Assembly: GCA_937136395.1 (NCBI GenBank)
Contig: CAKZOI010000021.1
Coordinates: forward strand, 1-64,000
DNA from: an uncultured Opitutia bacterium
GTDB taxonomy: Bacteria; Verrucomicrobiota; Verrucomicrobiia; Opitutales; Coraliomargaritaceae
Direction of reading: 5' to 3'
Length of the DNA: 64,000 bases
In this document: in pieces, positions 30,018-37,742 of the stretch
Layout of the letters: every line of letters begins with the position of its first letter
Numbering within the stretch: position 1 is the first letter of the stretch
Notes under the pieces: generated by a model
What the model saw: only the letters and a program-made list of their open reading frames with translations
The model's database searches: none
Told to the model about the DNA's origin: nothing
Position numbers and translations under genes: made by a program

Positions 30018-30896
30018 TTACTCAGTACAGGACTGTGTCAGTGTTTGCTCAAAAGCACGCCCATATTCGACATAGCTGTTGTAGCATTGTTCCTCGTTGA
30101 TGGTTTCGCCTTCTGTTGCATGGAAGACGGTTGCGATGTGCGGCTCGATCGCGTAGGCACCAGTATAGCCATTTGCTTGCAAGGCTTTCAATGTCTCACT
30201 GATTCGGGCTAAGCCTTCGCCGGCAAAGGTATAACGCTCTGGCTCATCGCTGCCTTCTGGCGGATGTAGGCAGTCCTTAATGTGGACATGAGCTACATGC
30301 GCTTGGATCGTTTGGTAGAATTCAAGTGGGTCTTGCCAAGGGTAGGGTTGTGGTTTTGAGCGGTCGCGTTGGAAGACCGGGTTGCCTGTGTCGTAGATTA
30401 GTTTCAAGCCCGGCACTTCCTCAATAAGGCGTAGCGTGTGTTGGGCGGAGAAGCCTCCCCAGTTCATGCAGTTTTCGTGGAGGGCATCAATGCCTGCGTC
30501 GCTAAAGCGTTGCACGATTTCCCTTAGGCGGCGAAAGCGTTCAGCTTCTTGTTGATCCTCGCCCCATGGCTTTTGAGCGTAGGACATGATGCGAATTAGC
30601 TTCGTGCCGAGCTGCTGCATGCGGGGAATCGCACGCTCGATCTCGCCGATAGTGACGGCGAAGTTAGATTCAATTGGCTTTGACCAGCTACCAATTAGGG
30701 AGCCGAACTCGATGACTTGAATGCCCGCTTCGTTGAGTTGAGCCACAGAGTTCTGGAAATCAGCTTCAGATAGGTCGTGTATATTTTGACCATCGATGCT
30801 GCGTGCCGAGAGGTGATTCCAACCTAAGTCCTTGGTGGCTTTGATTTGTGTGGCTAGAGACTGTCCAGCTTCGTCTGTGAATCCTGTTAAGATCAT
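30018..30896 (-). CDS. Sugar isomerase/epimerase, xylose-isomerase-like TIM barrel
   Basis: A 292-residue cytoplasmic protein of the AP-endonuclease-2/xylose isomerase TIM-barrel superfamily. Likely divalent metal ligands are Glu141 (ALHENCMNWGG), Asp169 (IYDTGNP), His205 (HVHIKD) and Glu251 (YAIEPH). It follows the cytosolic Gfo/Idh gene by eight bases and precedes the sulfatase gene. Families of this kind, next to Gfo/Idh and DUF1080 genes, act as epimerases or dehydratases on keto-sugars; a role in processing a 3-keto sugar is inferred from this context. Exact reaction unknown. Confidence 0.85.
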   Translation of the reverse strand: MILTGFTDEAGQSLATQIKATKDLGWNHLSARSIDGQNIHDLSEADFQNSVAQLNEAGIQVIEFGSLIGSWSKPIESNFAVTIGEIERAIPRMQQLGTKLIRIMSYAQKPWGEDQQEAERFRRLREIVQRFSDAGIDALHENCMNWGGFSAQHTLRLIEEVPGLKLIYDTGNPVFQRDRSKPQPYPWQDPLEFYQTIQAHVAHVHIKDCLHPPEGSDEPERYTFAGEGLARISETLKALQANGYTGAYAIEPHIATVFHATEGETINEEQCYNSYVEYGRAFEQTLTQSCTE

Positions 30897-30904
30897 GAAT
30901 ACGT

Positions 30905-31951
30905 TTAGCTTAATTCGACTTTTAGGCCGTTGTTTTGGGCAGACTTGTAAATTGCTTGAATGACTTCAACGCACTTACGAGCCTCGCTTGCGCCAGTGCT
31001 GGGCTCGCGGTTCTCTTTGATGGCGTTGACGACTTCTTCGAAATTACGTTGGTGCTGATAGAAGTTGATTGCAGTCGGGTCGTTTGCGCCGAGGCCAGCT
31101 TCGGCTCCCTGCATGAATTGAGCTCGTATGGCTTCGTCTTCTTCGGTTTCGTTCATGAAATCCCAGGCTTCGAAAGCTTCGTCAGCGAGAAAGACAGAGC
31201 CTTCAGTGCCGGCCAATTGAACACGAGCAGGGTGGCCGTCCTTTGACCAAGTGCAGGTACTGCCTTCGATGATACCGCGGGCACCGTTCTCAAACTCAAC
31301 AATGGCGACGGCAATATCTTCAACCTCAATGTCTGTGTGCGCCAAGCAAGCAGTGTTTGCCTGCACTGATTTGACTGGTCCAGCGAGATAGATCAGTGCA
31401 TCGATGGTGTGAATGGATTGATTCATGAGGGCACCTCCGCCGTCGAGCGCCCATGTGCCGCGCCAACCCGCAGAGTCGTAGTAGGCTTGGTCGCGATACC
31501 ATTTTACATAGGCAGAGGCGGAGGTAAGTTTACCAAAGCGCCCTGCGTCTGCGGCTTTCTTGAAGGCATCCATACCTGGGTGGAAGCGGCGGTTCAATAC
31601 TGCGGCGATGGTGACGCCTTTTGCTTTTGCGGCTGCGACCATTTGGTCAATGCGCTCTGTGGTGATTTCCAGCGGCTTCTCTATCACCACGTGTTTACCA
31701 GCTTCGATGGCTGCCATGGCAGGTTCGAAGTGCGCGCCTGATGGCGTGCCAATGGTGACGATGTCGATCGCTGGGTCTGCGAGCATTTCTTCGACTGAGG
31801 CGTAGGCCTTGGTGTTATATTGCTCAGCAAATGCCTGTGTGCGCTCGAGTATACGATCTGCTGCACCGATTAGTGTGCCGCCTTCCATCGCATCGATGGC
31901 TTTAGCGTGAAAGCCACCGATCATTCCTGTTCCAATAATTCCGAAATTCAT
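30905..31951 (-). CDS. Cytosolic Gfo/Idh/MocA oxidoreductase
   Basis: The 348-residue protein has no export signal. It has the NAD(P)-binding start FGIIGTGMIGGFHAKAI, the EKP motif in HVVIEKPLE, the catalytic-region sequence GGGALMNQSIHTIDALIYLAG with the conserved Asp/His pair, and a C-terminal domain of the inositol/glucose dehydrogenase type. It would oxidise a sugar or sugar acid, probably at C3 or C2. It sits four bases after the Nramp-fold transporter gene, suggesting that the transporter's substrate or a downstream product is what it acts on. The substrate cannot be told. Confidence 0.9.
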   Translation of the reverse strand: MNFGIIGTGMIGGFHAKAIDAMEGGTLIGAADRILERTQAFAEQYNTKAYASVEEMLADPAIDIVTIGTPSGAHFEPAMAAIEAGKHVVIEKPLEITTERIDQMVAAAKAKGVTIAAVLNRRFHPGMDAFKKAADAGRFGKLTSASAYVKWYRDQAYYDSAGWRGTWALDGGGALMNQSIHTIDALIYLAGPVKSVQANTACLAHTDIEVEDIAVAIVEFENGARGIIEGSTCTWSKDGHPARVQLAGTEGSVFLADEAFEAWDFMNETEEDEAIRAQFMQGAEAGLGANDPTAINFYQHQRNFEEVVNAIKENREPSTGASEARKCVEVIQAIYKSAQNNGLKVELS

Positions 31952-31955
31952 ATGT

Positions 31956-33581
31956 TTAACTGGTTGCGTTTTGATTCTTGATAAAGCCTCTAATGCCGAG
32001 TGCCGCGAGGACGATTAGGCAGCCAATGCCAATCATGCCAGGTGTGCCTTTGTTGCAAAGCGCCCAGACTGAGGCGAACGTTGCCACACCTGCAGAGATG
32101 ACCATGAGTGCATTGATGAGTCCTCTGTTCTTCGGTAAATCATCACCAAGTGCGGATCTAGAATTCATCAGTAGCAGAAAGCCTAGGTAAGCAATCGGCA
32201 GTAGGGTGGTGGCAATTACAGATGCTGGGATCGCCATGGCGGCTTTAGCGTCGCCACTCCAGAGAAAGGGTGAAAAGAGTCCGGCGATGGCTGGCATCGC
32301 TGCGCCGAGTATAAAGATCTTTGCACTGCCTACTTTGTTGAATGCTTCACTGATTGCGTAGCCATTCATCATCATATGTACGAGCATTGTAGAAATCGCC
32401 ATGGCAAGCACACCAATTCCGAAAATCGTTTGTGAGTGTTTACCAAGGAATGGCTCTAGTGATTGTGCGAGGTTTACAGAGTCGCGGTTTGAAAGCATTG
32501 CAGCTAGTTGTTTGTCTGCGAGTGGTGCAGAGCTGCGCGCGACATCTTTTGCAGCGTCGTCCAGGGTGACGAAGTCTGCATTGTGATGTGCCAAGCTTTT
32601 GTCTAATACCTTGTAGTAAGCGCTTTGCATTTCTGGGTAAGGAATGCCGTTTTCGTCGAGAACGTCAGCATATTTGGCGTGGAAAGAAGCTGCTGATGCG
32701 ATCACCAGTGCTGAAGCGCCGAGGATGAATGGCACGAAAAGTCCAAGCACGAGATCGAAACGAGAGAGCTCTCTATGTTGTTTGCCCCAGCCCCGTTTCT
32801 TGAGGCTGTAAGGAAGGAGGAAAGTCATGTTGATGCCGACAGCGGTGCCGAAGGCAGCGATGATTTTACCGCGTTGCTCAGAGGTGACGTATTCGGTCCA
32901 GTAGCTGGCACTTTCGCCAGTTGTTGCAATTGCTGATGCAATTAAATCGGTTGGTTTGAAGAGTGCGGTAAAGTCAGGAATCAGCCCTGAGAAAAGGCTG
33001 CCCCATGATACGGCGCCATTTTTAATGAGAGTGACCACTACGCCCATGAAGGCGATTACGATAACTGCGACGAGGCCCTTTAGGATATTATCAATTAATC
33101 GCGATGCGCGCTCATTTTTTTGACCGAGTGCGATGAGTGAGAGTGCCATGATAAAGAGAGAACCTGTGATCACGTAAGGACCAGGATTGAATCCCAGATT
33201 ATCTTCGATGGCACCACGACCGAGCGAAAACTGCGCGGCGCAAAAAACGGTGTCAGCAATCACTGTGGCAATCAGCCATCCCCATGCGAGCGTCGAGGAG
33301 ACTTTTTTTTGCATCACTCGAAATGGTCGCTCTTCGCATGAAAGCGTGACGTAGGAAATGGCGCCGAGCATAATGATACCGCACAGCATCGCTAAAGGTT
33401 GTAACCAGAGGAATTCATATCCTCCGATAATGCCGAGGTAGAGTGCGCCGACAAGGGAGCCGCCTCCAAGGGTCACTGCTGCTTGGACCCAGCCAGGGCC
33501 AGTCATTTTGCCGTAACCAGTTAGCTTGCCTAGAAAGCCGCGCTGCTGGATGGATTCGATCGATTCGATTTGCTTACTCAT
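31956..33581 (-). CDS. Nramp-fold transporter without canonical metal-binding motifs
   Basis: A 541-residue protein with about eleven or twelve membrane segments. The start (GYGKMTGPGWVQAAVTLGGGSLVGALYLG, residues 22-50) aligns with the first segment of Nramp transporters. The metal motif DPGN is replaced by GGGS, and the segment-6 MPH motif corresponds to ATTGESASYW (residues ~219-228). The known manganese/iron ligands Asp, Asn and Met are therefore missing. A large loop at ~300-370 is also unusual. It lies in a sugar-processing operon, directly in front of a Gfo/Idh gene. It may move another ion or an organic solute; the true substrate is unknown. Confidence 0.78.
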   Translation of the reverse strand: MSKQIESIESIQQRGFLGKLTGYGKMTGPGWVQAAVTLGGGSLVGALYLGIIGGYEFLWLQPLAMLCGIIMLGAISYVTLSCEERPFRVMQKKVSSTLAWGWLIATVIADTVFCAAQFSLGRGAIEDNLGFNPGPYVITGSLFIMALSLIALGQKNERASRLIDNILKGLVAVIVIAFMGVVVTLIKNGAVSWGSLFSGLIPDFTALFKPTDLIASAIATTGESASYWTEYVTSEQRGKIIAAFGTAVGINMTFLLPYSLKKRGWGKQHRELSRFDLVLGLFVPFILGASALVIASAASFHAKYADVLDENGIPYPEMQSAYYKVLDKSLAHHNADFVTLDDAAKDVARSSAPLADKQLAAMLSNRDSVNLAQSLEPFLGKHSQTIFGIGVLAMAISTMLVHMMMNGYAISEAFNKVGSAKIFILGAAMPAIAGLFSPFLWSGDAKAAMAIPASVIATTLLPIAYLGFLLLMNSRSALGDDLPKNRGLINALMVISAGVATFASVWALCNKGTPGMIGIGCLIVLAALGIRGFIKNQNATS

Positions 33582-33612: not shown

Positions 33613-34182
33613 CTAAAGTTCGCGGATCTGAATATTCTTAAACCAGACTTCGTCTAGGTGGTCTTGTAAGAGTATGGGACCGGCTCGATTACCGAAGTCT
33701 TCGTGTTTGGAATATTTACTTTTTTGAAAACGTTTTTTCCAATCGTCGCTCCCATATTCGATTTCGACGATTTTCTTGCCGTTGAGCCAGTGCTCAATTT
33801 GGTTTCCTTTGGCTACAATATGGCTGTGGTTCCATTCTCCTACCGGATTGATTGGTTTATTGTCAGGCGCGGCGACCAATGCATACAGTGACCCCGCGCG
33901 GTGCGTGGGGTCTTTGCTGTCTTTGTGTTTGTGGTCATCGAGAATTTGATATTCAAGGCCTAAGCTGCCGAGCGTTCGATATTTTACTCCGCTATTGCCG
34001 GCTTCGGATATCTTCCAGTTGAAACGTAGCTCAAAGTCTTTGTAGTGTTTGCGAGTGATGATATCTCCAGGCCTAAATCCTGTGCGGTGAACGACACCAC
34101 TTTCAATATGCCAGCCGTTTTTGACAGGTTTACCATTGATACGAGTCCACTCCGAGAAGTCGCCTGTAGCGAAGAGATCCTT
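33613..34182 (-). pseudogene. Second DUF1080 domain, in frame after a TGA stop
   Basis: Reading on in the same frame past the TGA at 34183-34185 gives 189 uninterrupted residues that form a complete DUF1080 (PF06439) domain. It starts KDLFATGDFSEW and continues with NGWHIESGVV, YKDFELRFNWKI, GNSGVKYR, LEYQILDD, PVGEWNHSHIV and IEHWLNGKKIVEIEYG to the end at 33613. There is no ATG, GTG or TTG near its beginning; the first TTG is at 33879, inside the domain. It therefore seems to be the second half of one protein with the upstream domain, cut by a nonsense codon, an error or read-through. Confidence 0.75.
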
Positions 34183-34944
34183 TCAGTGAGCTGCTGCGGC
34201 AAGTTCCTTGACCTTGATATTTCGGAAGTGAATTTCACCGGCCTTACCTGAATGCACTTGGAGACTGAAGTAGCCTTTTTTATATTCTTCGGTTTCCCAG
34301 TTGGCTGCAGGGATGCCATTGATCCAGGTTTTTACGTTGGTGCCGATGGCTTGAATGGTTACGCGATTCCATTGGCCCTTCTTGATAGCATTGCGCGCTT
34401 CTTCGTGTGCGTCTAGCCAGAGTGGGTACGCCCATCCGCCTGCCGATTGGCCATAGATGCCTCCAGACCAGCGACGTGTGCCCACATCGCCTTCCATTTC
34501 GCATTGTGGTCCGTAGACCTTGACTTTACCATTTGTATTAGCTTCTTGCTGGGCACGAAACATGATGCCGGTATTGCCATTCACCGCCCATTTGATCTCC
34601 GCTGTGAAGATGAAGTCTGTATAGTCGTCTTTCACTGTGGATAGGTAAGTGCTCGGCGAGCCTTTAATCGTTGTTCCGACGATCACGTCGTCTTTGACTT
34701 CGAAAGTGCAGTGGCCACCTAAGGGGACCCACCCATCAAGGTTTTTACCATTGAATAGCTCTATAAAGCCCCGGCCAACCAAACTTGGCTCTGGCTCTGT
34801 GTTGATGAGCATGTCTTTTGGGTTGGGCGTGTTTTCCTGCTTTGCATATTTCTGAATGTATCGTTTTTGGCTTTCAGAAACTTGATTGGCGCAGGCCACG
34901 GATAGTGTGGCTAGGCAGAGTGCGAATACTGTGATTGTTTTCAT
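34183..34944 (-). CDS. Secreted DUF1080 protein (3-keto-glycoside hydrolase-like), first domain
   Basis: A 253-residue protein with signal peptide (MKTITVFALCLATLSVACANQ; a Cys near the cleavage point could be lipidated). The DUF1080 domain runs from FIELFNGKNLDGWVPLGGH through YTDFIFTAEIKWAVNGNTGIMFRAQ and CEMEGDVGTRRWSGGIYGQ to FSLQVHSGKAGEIHFRNIKVKEL. DUF1080 proteins include enzymes that cleave 3-keto glycosides made by Gfo/Idh dehydrogenases; such dehydrogenases flank this gene. The frame ends at a TGA, but a second complete DUF1080 domain continues directly in the same frame. Confidence 0.85.
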   Translation of the reverse strand: MKTITVFALCLATLSVACANQVSESQKRYIQKYAKQENTPNPKDMLINTEPEPSLVGRGFIELFNGKNLDGWVPLGGHCTFEVKDDVIVGTTIKGSPSTYLSTVKDDYTDFIFTAEIKWAVNGNTGIMFRAQQEANTNGKVKVYGPQCEMEGDVGTRRWSGGIYGQSAGGWAYPLWLDAHEEARNAIKKGQWNRVTIQAIGTNVKTWINGIPAANWETEEYKKGYFSLQVHSGKAGEIHFRNIKVKELAAAAH

Positions 34945-34971: not shown

Positions 34972-36405
34972 TTAAAGCACGTAGTATTGTTCCCATCCCT
35001 TGCGAGGTACAGGGTCGAGCAGTGTGTTCGCGGCTGTGTTATTGGTGATCTGCTTTCTTTGAGTATCGAACTTGATTGTGCCACCAAAGCGCTGTGTTAG
35101 AACGCCGAGGTTGAATACTTGTGTGAGTGGGCCGCTGACACTGAAAGGTGAGCGTGCTTCCTCTTCCCCCTTGCAGGCGAGTAGGAAATTAGCGTAGTGG
35201 TTCGAGTTCTTTTGTGGGAATCTCGGAAGCTTCCCGCGCATGTCCATATATTTTTCGCGTGGCACGATTTGGAGTGGTTCGCCATGGTGACCTCCCTTGA
35301 ATGTGAGGTCCTTACTGTAGAGGACTTTTCCAGGTCTATCGAGCACGGTCGCTTTGGCAACGGTTTCGCCTTTAGCCGGTTCGCTGAATTCCGCTTCGAG
35401 TTTTGGCTTGTTCTTTACGCCATCATACCAGGTGACTTCGCAGGCAGGTAAATCAGGGCCACGCTCTGGGAAACTAAAGCGAATAGTGGATGAAGCTGGA
35501 TAAATTAAATCGCTCTTATTGATGCCATCTAGGTGAACTGCAGTGACATCAGTTGGTAGACCGAGTTCTAGGAAACGGTGGCAGGTGTCGAGAATATGTG
35601 GACCCCAATCGCCGAAGCATCCACTGCCGTAGTCATACCAACTGCGCCATTCCTGTGGGTGAAGTTTTTTACTGTAGGGGTGTGGTTGTGCGACCACATC
35701 CATCCACTGATCCCAATCGACGCCAGCAGGTAGTGGCTCGCTTGGATATTTGGTCGCTTTGCTGCCCCATCCGTGCCAGCGGCGTCGGCTGTTCATGTGG
35801 GCAGTAATGCGAGTGATATCTTTGATGATACCTGCCTCACGCCATGCTTTGAATTGAAAATAGTTGGCCCCAGAGTGTCCTTGGTTGCCCATCTGTGTTA
35901 CGACATTGGGGTGTTTTGCACTCATACGAATCAAGCGCTCACTCTGCCCAAAGGTGTGTGCGAGGGGCTTTTCAACGAATACGTGCTTGCCCAAGGACAT
36001 CGCTAACATCGTAGCGGCAAAGTGTGAATGGTCGGGGGTTGCAATGAGGACGGCGTCAATCTCGTTTGCCATCTTATCAAACATCACACGGAAGTCTTTG
36101 AATTTACGTGCGGAAGGATGCGCCCTAAGTGAACCTTGAGTATGCTTGCCTTCGAGGTCGATATCACAGAGTGCAACGACATTGCAATGTCCTGATCCAA
36201 AGAGTGTTTTTAGGTCGTTACCGCCTTGGTTGCCAATGCCGATGACGGCTAGGTTGACTTTCTCATTGGGTCCGATCCCAGTTCCAGATTGCTTACCTAA
36301 TGCAACGTATGAAGGCAGGATTGTTAAGGCGCCAAATGCTGCGGATGTTTTGAGGAAATCGCGACGACTGGCTAGGGTGGTTTGCTTCTTATTTATTGGG
36401 TTCAT
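34972..36405 (-). CDS. Gfo/Idh/MocA oxidoreductase with Tat signal, head of catabolic cluster
   Basis: The 477-residue protein has a twin-arginine signal (LASRRDFLKTSAAFGALTILPS), an NAD(P)-binding start VNLAVIGIGNQGGND, the EKP motif in HVFVEKPLAHT, and the long C-terminal domain with SWYDYGSGCFGDWGPHILDTCHRFL typical of exported Gfo/Idh proteins in Planctomycetes, Verrucomicrobia and Bacteroidetes. It is the first gene of the minus-strand run 36405-28584 and faces the ROK repressor. It probably oxidises a glycoside to a 3-keto form in the periplasm for the DUF1080 protein next to it. That reaction is inferred from known DUF1080 systems. Confidence 0.9.
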   Translation of the reverse strand: MNPINKKQTTLASRRDFLKTSAAFGALTILPSYVALGKQSGTGIGPNEKVNLAVIGIGNQGGNDLKTLFGSGHCNVVALCDIDLEGKHTQGSLRAHPSARKFKDFRVMFDKMANEIDAVLIATPDHSHFAATMLAMSLGKHVFVEKPLAHTFGQSERLIRMSAKHPNVVTQMGNQGHSGANYFQFKAWREAGIIKDITRITAHMNSRRRWHGWGSKATKYPSEPLPAGVDWDQWMDVVAQPHPYSKKLHPQEWRSWYDYGSGCFGDWGPHILDTCHRFLELGLPTDVTAVHLDGINKSDLIYPASSTIRFSFPERGPDLPACEVTWYDGVKNKPKLEAEFSEPAKGETVAKATVLDRPGKVLYSKDLTFKGGHHGEPLQIVPREKYMDMRGKLPRFPQKNSNHYANFLLACKGEEEARSPFSVSGPLTQVFNLGVLTQRFGGTIKFDTQRKQITNNTAANTLLDPVPRKGWEQYYVL

Positions 36406-36530: not shown

Positions 36531-37742
36531 ATGCCGAGCCAACAAAAATTTGATCGTGGTGATATCCGTCGCTTGAACGCTGTCAGTGTTTTGAATCAGT
36601 TACGTCTTAAGGGTGCATTATCACGTGCTAACATTGCCTTTGAACTCGGACTGACGCGAGCGACAGTTTCGAATATAATCGCGAATCTAATCGATGCGTC
36701 AATGGTCAGTGAGACAGAGTATGATTCGGGTCGCGCAGGACGCCCAGGTCTGTTGTTGAATTTGAATCCAGCGTTCGGGGCGATGATTGCAGTTGATATT
36801 GATATCGACAGTATAAGCATACTGCTGACTGATTTTGGGCAAGAGGTGCTTTATCGTGCACAAAACCCAATTGATTCAGAGGGATCGTCTGAAGCTACTT
36901 TGGCGATTGCGGTCTCCATGGTTGAGAAGGCAATTCAATTGAGTGAATCGAAGGGCTTGCAGTGTCTCGGTATCTGTGTGACTTGGGCGGGCTTGGTAGA
37001 TCGCGAAGAAGGTCAATTGGCTTTTGGACCTACTACAGGTTGGCAGCGTGTGGCATTGAAGACGACTTGGGAGAAACGTTTCGAAGTGTCGGTCTACGTT
37101 GAGAATGAGGCGCATGCTGGCGCTATCGGTGTGCACCATTTTGGCGAGCGTCCTGGAGTCCGTAATTTAATATATCTCAGTTTGGGGGGCGGGTTGGCCG
37201 CAGGTGTTTTCGTAGATGGAGTGTTGTTGCGTGGTAAACTGGGCTTTGCAGGGCAGGTCGGGCATACTAGCTTTGCTGATAACGGTGTTGTTTGCAGCTG
37301 TGGTAAGCAGGGTTGTTGGGTTACTGAAATTGGTGCGGCAGCTTTATTTAGAAAACTTTCTGAGGCAGGCGTTGATTTTCCGACTAATAATGCTTCGGGC
37401 AATGGGTGGATAGACTGTGTTTTAAATAAAGTGGAATTGGGTGATGAAGTCGTCCTTGGCGTATTGTCTGAAATCGGTGCGAGCGTTGGAGCTGGTCTAG
37501 CCCGTTTAGTTCAGACGTTTAATCCATCGATGGTGGTTGTTGGCGGGCGTCTTTCTGAGCTGCTGAAATATGTCGAACCTGTGATTCGTGAAGCGACTTT
37601 GAATGATACGCTGGCTTATATGACAGATCCTCTTGAATTAATCGTGGGCACTTCTGGTGACGATGCTTTGCGCGGTGGTATTGCTACGGTCTTTGACTCT
37701 GTGATGAAGAATCCAAAGATTGGAGAAATGGCGGGCAATTAG
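36531..37742 (+). CDS. ROK-family transcriptional repressor
   Basis: The 403-residue protein has an N-terminal winged helix-turn-helix (LRLKGALSRANIAFELGLTRATVSNIIANL) and a C-terminal ROK sugar-kinase-like domain with the zinc motif CSCGKQGCW and the ROK signature around LIYLSLGGGLAAGVFVDG. The ATP-binding Asp motif is degenerate (MIAVDIDIDSISILL), as expected for a regulator such as NagC or XylR. It is divergent from the exported Gfo/Idh gene, with a palindrome between them, so it probably represses the 36405-28584 cluster and senses a sugar from it. Confidence 0.92.
   Translation: MPSQQKFDRGDIRRLNAVSVLNQLRLKGALSRANIAFELGLTRATVSNIIANLIDASMVSETEYDSGRAGRPGLLLNLNPAFGAMIAVDIDIDSISILLTDFGQEVLYRAQNPIDSEGSSEATLAIAVSMVEKAIQLSESKGLQCLGICVTWAGLVDREEGQLAFGPTTGWQRVALKTTWEKRFEVSVYVENEAHAGAIGVHHFGERPGVRNLIYLSLGGGLAAGVFVDGVLLRGKLGFAGQVGHTSFADNGVVCSCGKQGCWVTEIGAAALFRKLSEAGVDFPTNNASGNGWIDCVLNKVELGDEVVLGVLSEIGASVGAGLARLVQTFNPSMVVVGGRLSELLKYVEPVIREATLNDTLAYMTDPLELIVGTSGDDALRGGIATVFDSVMKNPKIGEMAGN

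Follow-up and report, generated by a model that had tools for sequence, protein, structure and literature searches.

Proteins of the PF06439 family (formerly DUF1080, 3-keto-disaccharide hydrolase) whose functions are known or have been proposed act on 3-keto-disaccharides (PMC9007349). Two of these, the 3-ketotrehalose hydrolase BT2157 and the putative 3'-ketolactose hydrolase CCNA_01705, resemble the putative hydrolase described here both in their PF06439 domain and in their association with sugar 3-dehydrogenases, but each has a single domain where our gene encodes a tandem (PMC9007349). The tandem architecture itself is found in PDB 4jqt (431 aa, a putative glycosyl hydrolase), whose one chain holds two PF06439 domains and is matched by both halves of our gene (E 2.9e-73, in two stretches). 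However, PDB 4jqt has no stop between its domains, and its linker is longer and different.

Uninterrupted homologues from Opitutales (G350, G081, G360 and G001) share with our locus the same two domains in the same order and the same upstream dehydrogenase gene, at 60-64% identity, but carry a Phe, Trp or Tyr codon where a TGA stop is found in the window, by which we mean the whole stretch of 64,000 nucleotides analysed from an uncultured Opitutia bacterium. Bacterial stop codon read-through and UGA-to-Trp decoding likewise feature an in-frame UGA in a place suited to Trp and followed by an intact frame (PMC13092985, PMC9481147). Unlike those systems, the stop in the window is not conserved, and it is accompanied neither by a suppressor or 4-bp-stem tRNA-Trp nor by a stimulatory structure.

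Layout of the interrupted gene

The gene occupies positions 34944-33613 on the minus strand; the preliminary description had given these coordinates correctly and left the strand unstated. On translation, a single frame runs from ATG through 253 codons in all, TGA, 189 further codons and TAG, which makes 443 positions with the internal stop counted, and reads MKTITV...VKELAAAAH, stop, KDLFATGDFSEW...IREL, stop. The first half (34186..34944, minus strand) begins at its own ATG and comprises 253 aa, with a signal peptide-like N-terminus followed by a complete PF06439 domain. The TGA (34183..34185, minus strand) lies in the inter-domain linker, and the second half (33616..34182, minus strand), a complete PF06439 domain of 189 aa, is closed by the TAG (33613-33615, minus strand). 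Against the Pfam profile for PF06439, which has a cut-off of 26.8 bits, the first half scores 125.9 bits over profile positions 1-187 and the second half 151.8 bits over positions 4-187. Two significant matches that abut in one frame are not a chance occurrence. Translation and profile matches thus agree with the earlier claim of two DUF1080 domains in one frame with a single TGA between them, and the chain that is uninterrupted in homologues is broken in the window gene at 34185-34183.

The second half was also said to have no usable start codon, and this holds: there is no ATG, GTG or TTG before codon 102 of its 189 codons, which is a TTG. A separate start was rejected even when rarer start codons were included, as the first ATC is codon 15 and the first TTG is codon 102. 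A genome search listed a stop-free open frame of 451 aa for the second half despite the TGA immediately in front of it; this seems to be a miscount that arises when a match begins just behind a stop, and a second search gave 189 for this position. When the stop is read as Trp, the structure is predicted as two domains rich in beta strands, whose cores are modelled with confidence (mean pLDDT 82.6, pTM 0.56) and whose strands fall within residues 72-247 and 266-442. The linker between them is predicted to be short, with residue 254, the position of the stop, as its last residue ahead of the second domain.

Fused homologues and conservation of the second domain

Our homologue search covered 57 relatives, 43 genomes from the family and 372 from the order, together with a scan of named genomes. 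The same two domains are fused without a stop in seven distinct other Opitutales genomes (G350, G360, G081, G001, G060, G352 and G130), and a stop between the two domains occurs in no genome searched except that of the window. The fused gene of G350 is the same gene as that of Pelagicoccus sp. SDUM812005 (L066), and G001 is the metagenome-assembled genome HE327_NSB101 (L067), which belongs to the same genus as the window. Over their whole length, the fused homologues are about 50 to 64% identical to the window gene, with the nearest at 60-64%.

At the column occupied by the stop, four of the seven fused homologues have Trp (G081, G352, G130 and G060), two have Phe (G350 and G360) and one has Tyr (G001). 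The same column is Trp, coded TGG, or Tyr in genes that carry the second domain behind another first domain (G014, G015, G018 and others). G081 comes closest, with GAG TGG AAA GAT at the junction against CAC TGA AAG GAT in the window. The window gene's linker from KEL to DLF, with the stop counted, is equal in length to that of G001. The TGG found in most homologues is one base from TGA, whereas at least two changes would be needed from the Tyr or Phe codons that also occur. The preliminary description had read the region as one two-domain protein with a premature stop and proposed a comparison with orthologues for a sense codon; the fused homologues do carry such a codon, for Phe, Tyr or Trp, exactly at the stop and so support that reading. 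Because the nearest of them are just 60-64% identical to the window gene, we can only infer the ancestral codon, which would have been TGG.

The second domain gives no sign of decay, as had been claimed at the outset. All other fused homologues agree at 54 columns in the second half and 64 in the first; the window departs at two and one of these, respectively, and the intact genes at 2-6 and 1-9. In a wider set of 21 second domains, 35 columns are otherwise invariant; the window departs at one of them, where H replaces R near EWN, and 0-2 departures are found in all but one outlier. Differences between the second domain and its nearest relative amount to 0.21, 0.12 and 0.57 at first, second and third codon positions, a pattern in agreement with the column counts that points to purifying selection on this domain over most of its history. 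It follows that, measured against the split from these relatives, the stop is recent, unless it is bypassed or is not real.

Possible origins of the stop codon

The best explanation in our view, and probably the correct one, is that a nonsense mutation arose very recently in a tandem hydrolase gene. The locus would encode a secreted tandem PF06439 protein of the 3-keto-glycoside hydrolase type within a conserved operon of 3-keto-sugar type, and an aromatic codon just ahead of the second domain would have become TGA, most simply by one G to A transition from TGG. Translation would then end after the first domain and yield a secreted protein of 253 aa with one domain, resembling the stand-alone homologues that related genomes encode, and the second domain would be lost save for what basal mis-reading of UGA by tRNA-Trp restores. 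The loss of function may be partial, because this first product retains the signal peptide together with one entire domain and is like those stand-alone homologues. We suppose that the change is real and recent and that the truncated product is active. Of the three options originally offered, the nonsense mutation is thus favoured, a sequencing error is possible, and programmed read-through finds no support beyond the open and undecayed frame.

The TGA is read from one assembly of the organism, and a consensus or assembly error would mean that the living cell carries a sense codon at this site, TGG or another, and produces the ordinary two-domain protein of 443 aa. A single substitution would be enough, and a second domain free of decay is what such an error would leave. 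Substitution errors are rare in a deep consensus, however, and the contig is long (270 kb), the genome is scored as 99.96% complete, and the window's 42 large frames show no other evident split gene. An error of this kind is unlikely, if still worth serious consideration.

It is less probable again that decoding of UGA as Trp is frequent enough to be functional, with one- and two-domain enzyme made side by side. In favour of this, homologues have Trp at the site more often than any other residue, the second domain is intact, and one study that used reporter tests in three bacteria measured UGA read-through of 0.04 to 12%, presumably through ordinary tRNA-Trp (PMC9481147). Because basal read-through spans this range, a trace of full-length protein seems plausible without any special signal. 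Low-level read-through as Trp is possible, and nothing at this locus singles it out. Against a functional role, the arrangement is not conserved: programmed read-through would be expected to leave a stop conserved among homologues ahead of a coding extension, and this stop exists in the window's genome only. The RNA 3' of the stop folds no better than shuffled sequences (z = 1.05), and no Rfam family matches at the stop. Changes in tRNA-Trp to a 4-bp anticodon stem, and A9C or G24A, have been linked to UGA reading (PMC13092985), but the single tRNA-Trp found in this genome has the anticodon CCA, a 5-bp anticodon stem, A9 and G24, so we rejected a suppressor-like tRNA-Trp. All 40 tRNAs found in the genome have sense anticodons, with no UCA-anticodon tRNA among them, and neither tRNA-Sec nor SelB was found above cut-off. 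Other genes nearby also end in TGA, which closes 6 of the 42 large frames of the window (the tandem gene's own included). A related proposal, that the TGA is maintained as a leaky stop, read by ordinary tRNA-Trp often enough to add a little two-domain enzyme to the single-domain form, strikes us as improbable.

An equally doubtful account takes the TGA as the native stop of a stand-alone first-domain gene, behind which a two-domain gene has lost its start, signal peptide and first domain by deletion. Exactly such a gene pair, in the same order, exists in G015, where a stand-alone first-domain gene (64% identical) ends in TAG and the next gene combines another first domain with the nearest relative of the window's second domain, at 76% identity. 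G002 and G010 have variants of this arrangement, and stand-alone first-domain genes end in short tails such as AAAAH. However, such a deletion would need an in-frame end point lying precisely on the domain boundary. We rank this account lower because the stop would also have to fall on a column that is aromatic in every fused gene, in a linker of the length found in G001, and because uninterrupted fused genes stand beside the same operon neighbours in seven other genomes from several families. G015, G002 and G010 also bear on a finding that was expected to speak against a single interrupted protein, namely that orthologues encode the two domains as separate genes with their own starts. In part this is so, as these three have a first-domain-type gene alone and a relative of the second domain in another gene, but that relative is joined to another kind of N-terminal domain, and in no case does it start right after the stop of the first gene.

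Two further proposals were rejected: a selenoprotein, for which tRNA-Sec and SelB fall short of the cut-off and the site is aromatic in homologues where Cys or Sec would be expected, and a UGA-to-Trp genetic code, given that RF2 is present in the genome, TGA ends other window genes and tRNA-Trp carries only the CCA anticodon.

Operon setting and domain exchange

The tandem gene is surrounded by conserved neighbours. Upstream on the same strand is a Gfo/Idh/MocA oxidoreductase with a TAT signal (34972..36405, minus strand), and beyond it a divergent ROK-family regulator (36531..37742, plus strand). Downstream are an Nramp-like membrane protein (31956..33581), a second Gfo/Idh/MocA oxidoreductase (30905..31951) and a xylose isomerase-like TIM barrel (30018..30896), all on the minus strand. 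G001 has this same order, from the ROK regulator through to the TIM barrel, as do G002 and G015, both of which contain extra genes, and the remaining genomes keep it in part; all seven fused homologues adjoin conserved operon neighbours. The best NCBIfam match of the upstream dehydrogenase is the glycoside 3-dehydrogenase BT_2158_fam, far below its cut-off (285 of 750 bits). Because of this match and the known or proposed action of PF06439 proteins on 3-keto-disaccharides, the window protein and its operon likely have a role in the breakdown of 3-keto-glycosides.

The Nramp-like protein (31956-33581) is 85-90% identical to its counterparts in other genera (G015 and G010) and just 61% identical to those of its own genus (G001 and G002), a pattern that suggests horizontal exchange or replacement by a paralogue. 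It scores weakly against the NCBIfam Nramp model (26 bits, cut-off 50), yet is matched by Pfam PF01566. Given its setting in a sugar-type operon, it may act on something other than a metal.

The PF06439 domains of this group are arranged in several ways at L041 (G015), L040 (G002), L043 (G010), L045 (G004) and L039 (G001), mostly at one conserved locus. These include the first domain alone, another first domain joined to the second, the second alone with its own signal peptide, and fusions of first and second; this variety amounts to extensive domain shuffling. A first-domain-type PF06439 protein also lies in a 712-aa frame at L049 1643-3781 (G022), a further part of which resembles, by eye, a PhoD-like phosphatase. 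One gene in G002 appeared to have an in-frame TGA with a match beyond it, but this proved to be alignment run-over with no second domain behind. Plasmid records yielded distant relatives only. The domain trees give no resolution on whether the fusions in the window and in G001 are the same event; the first-domain tree speaks weakly against uniting four fused genes in one clade (p 0.035).

The locus mainly calls for caution: through a change of one base, a known tandem enzyme can pass for an intact single-domain gene with a headless remnant behind it, which is how automatic annotation would enter it. More broadly, the locus illustrates how readily PF06439 domains are joined, separated and swapped within a conserved operon of 3-keto-sugar type in Opitutales.
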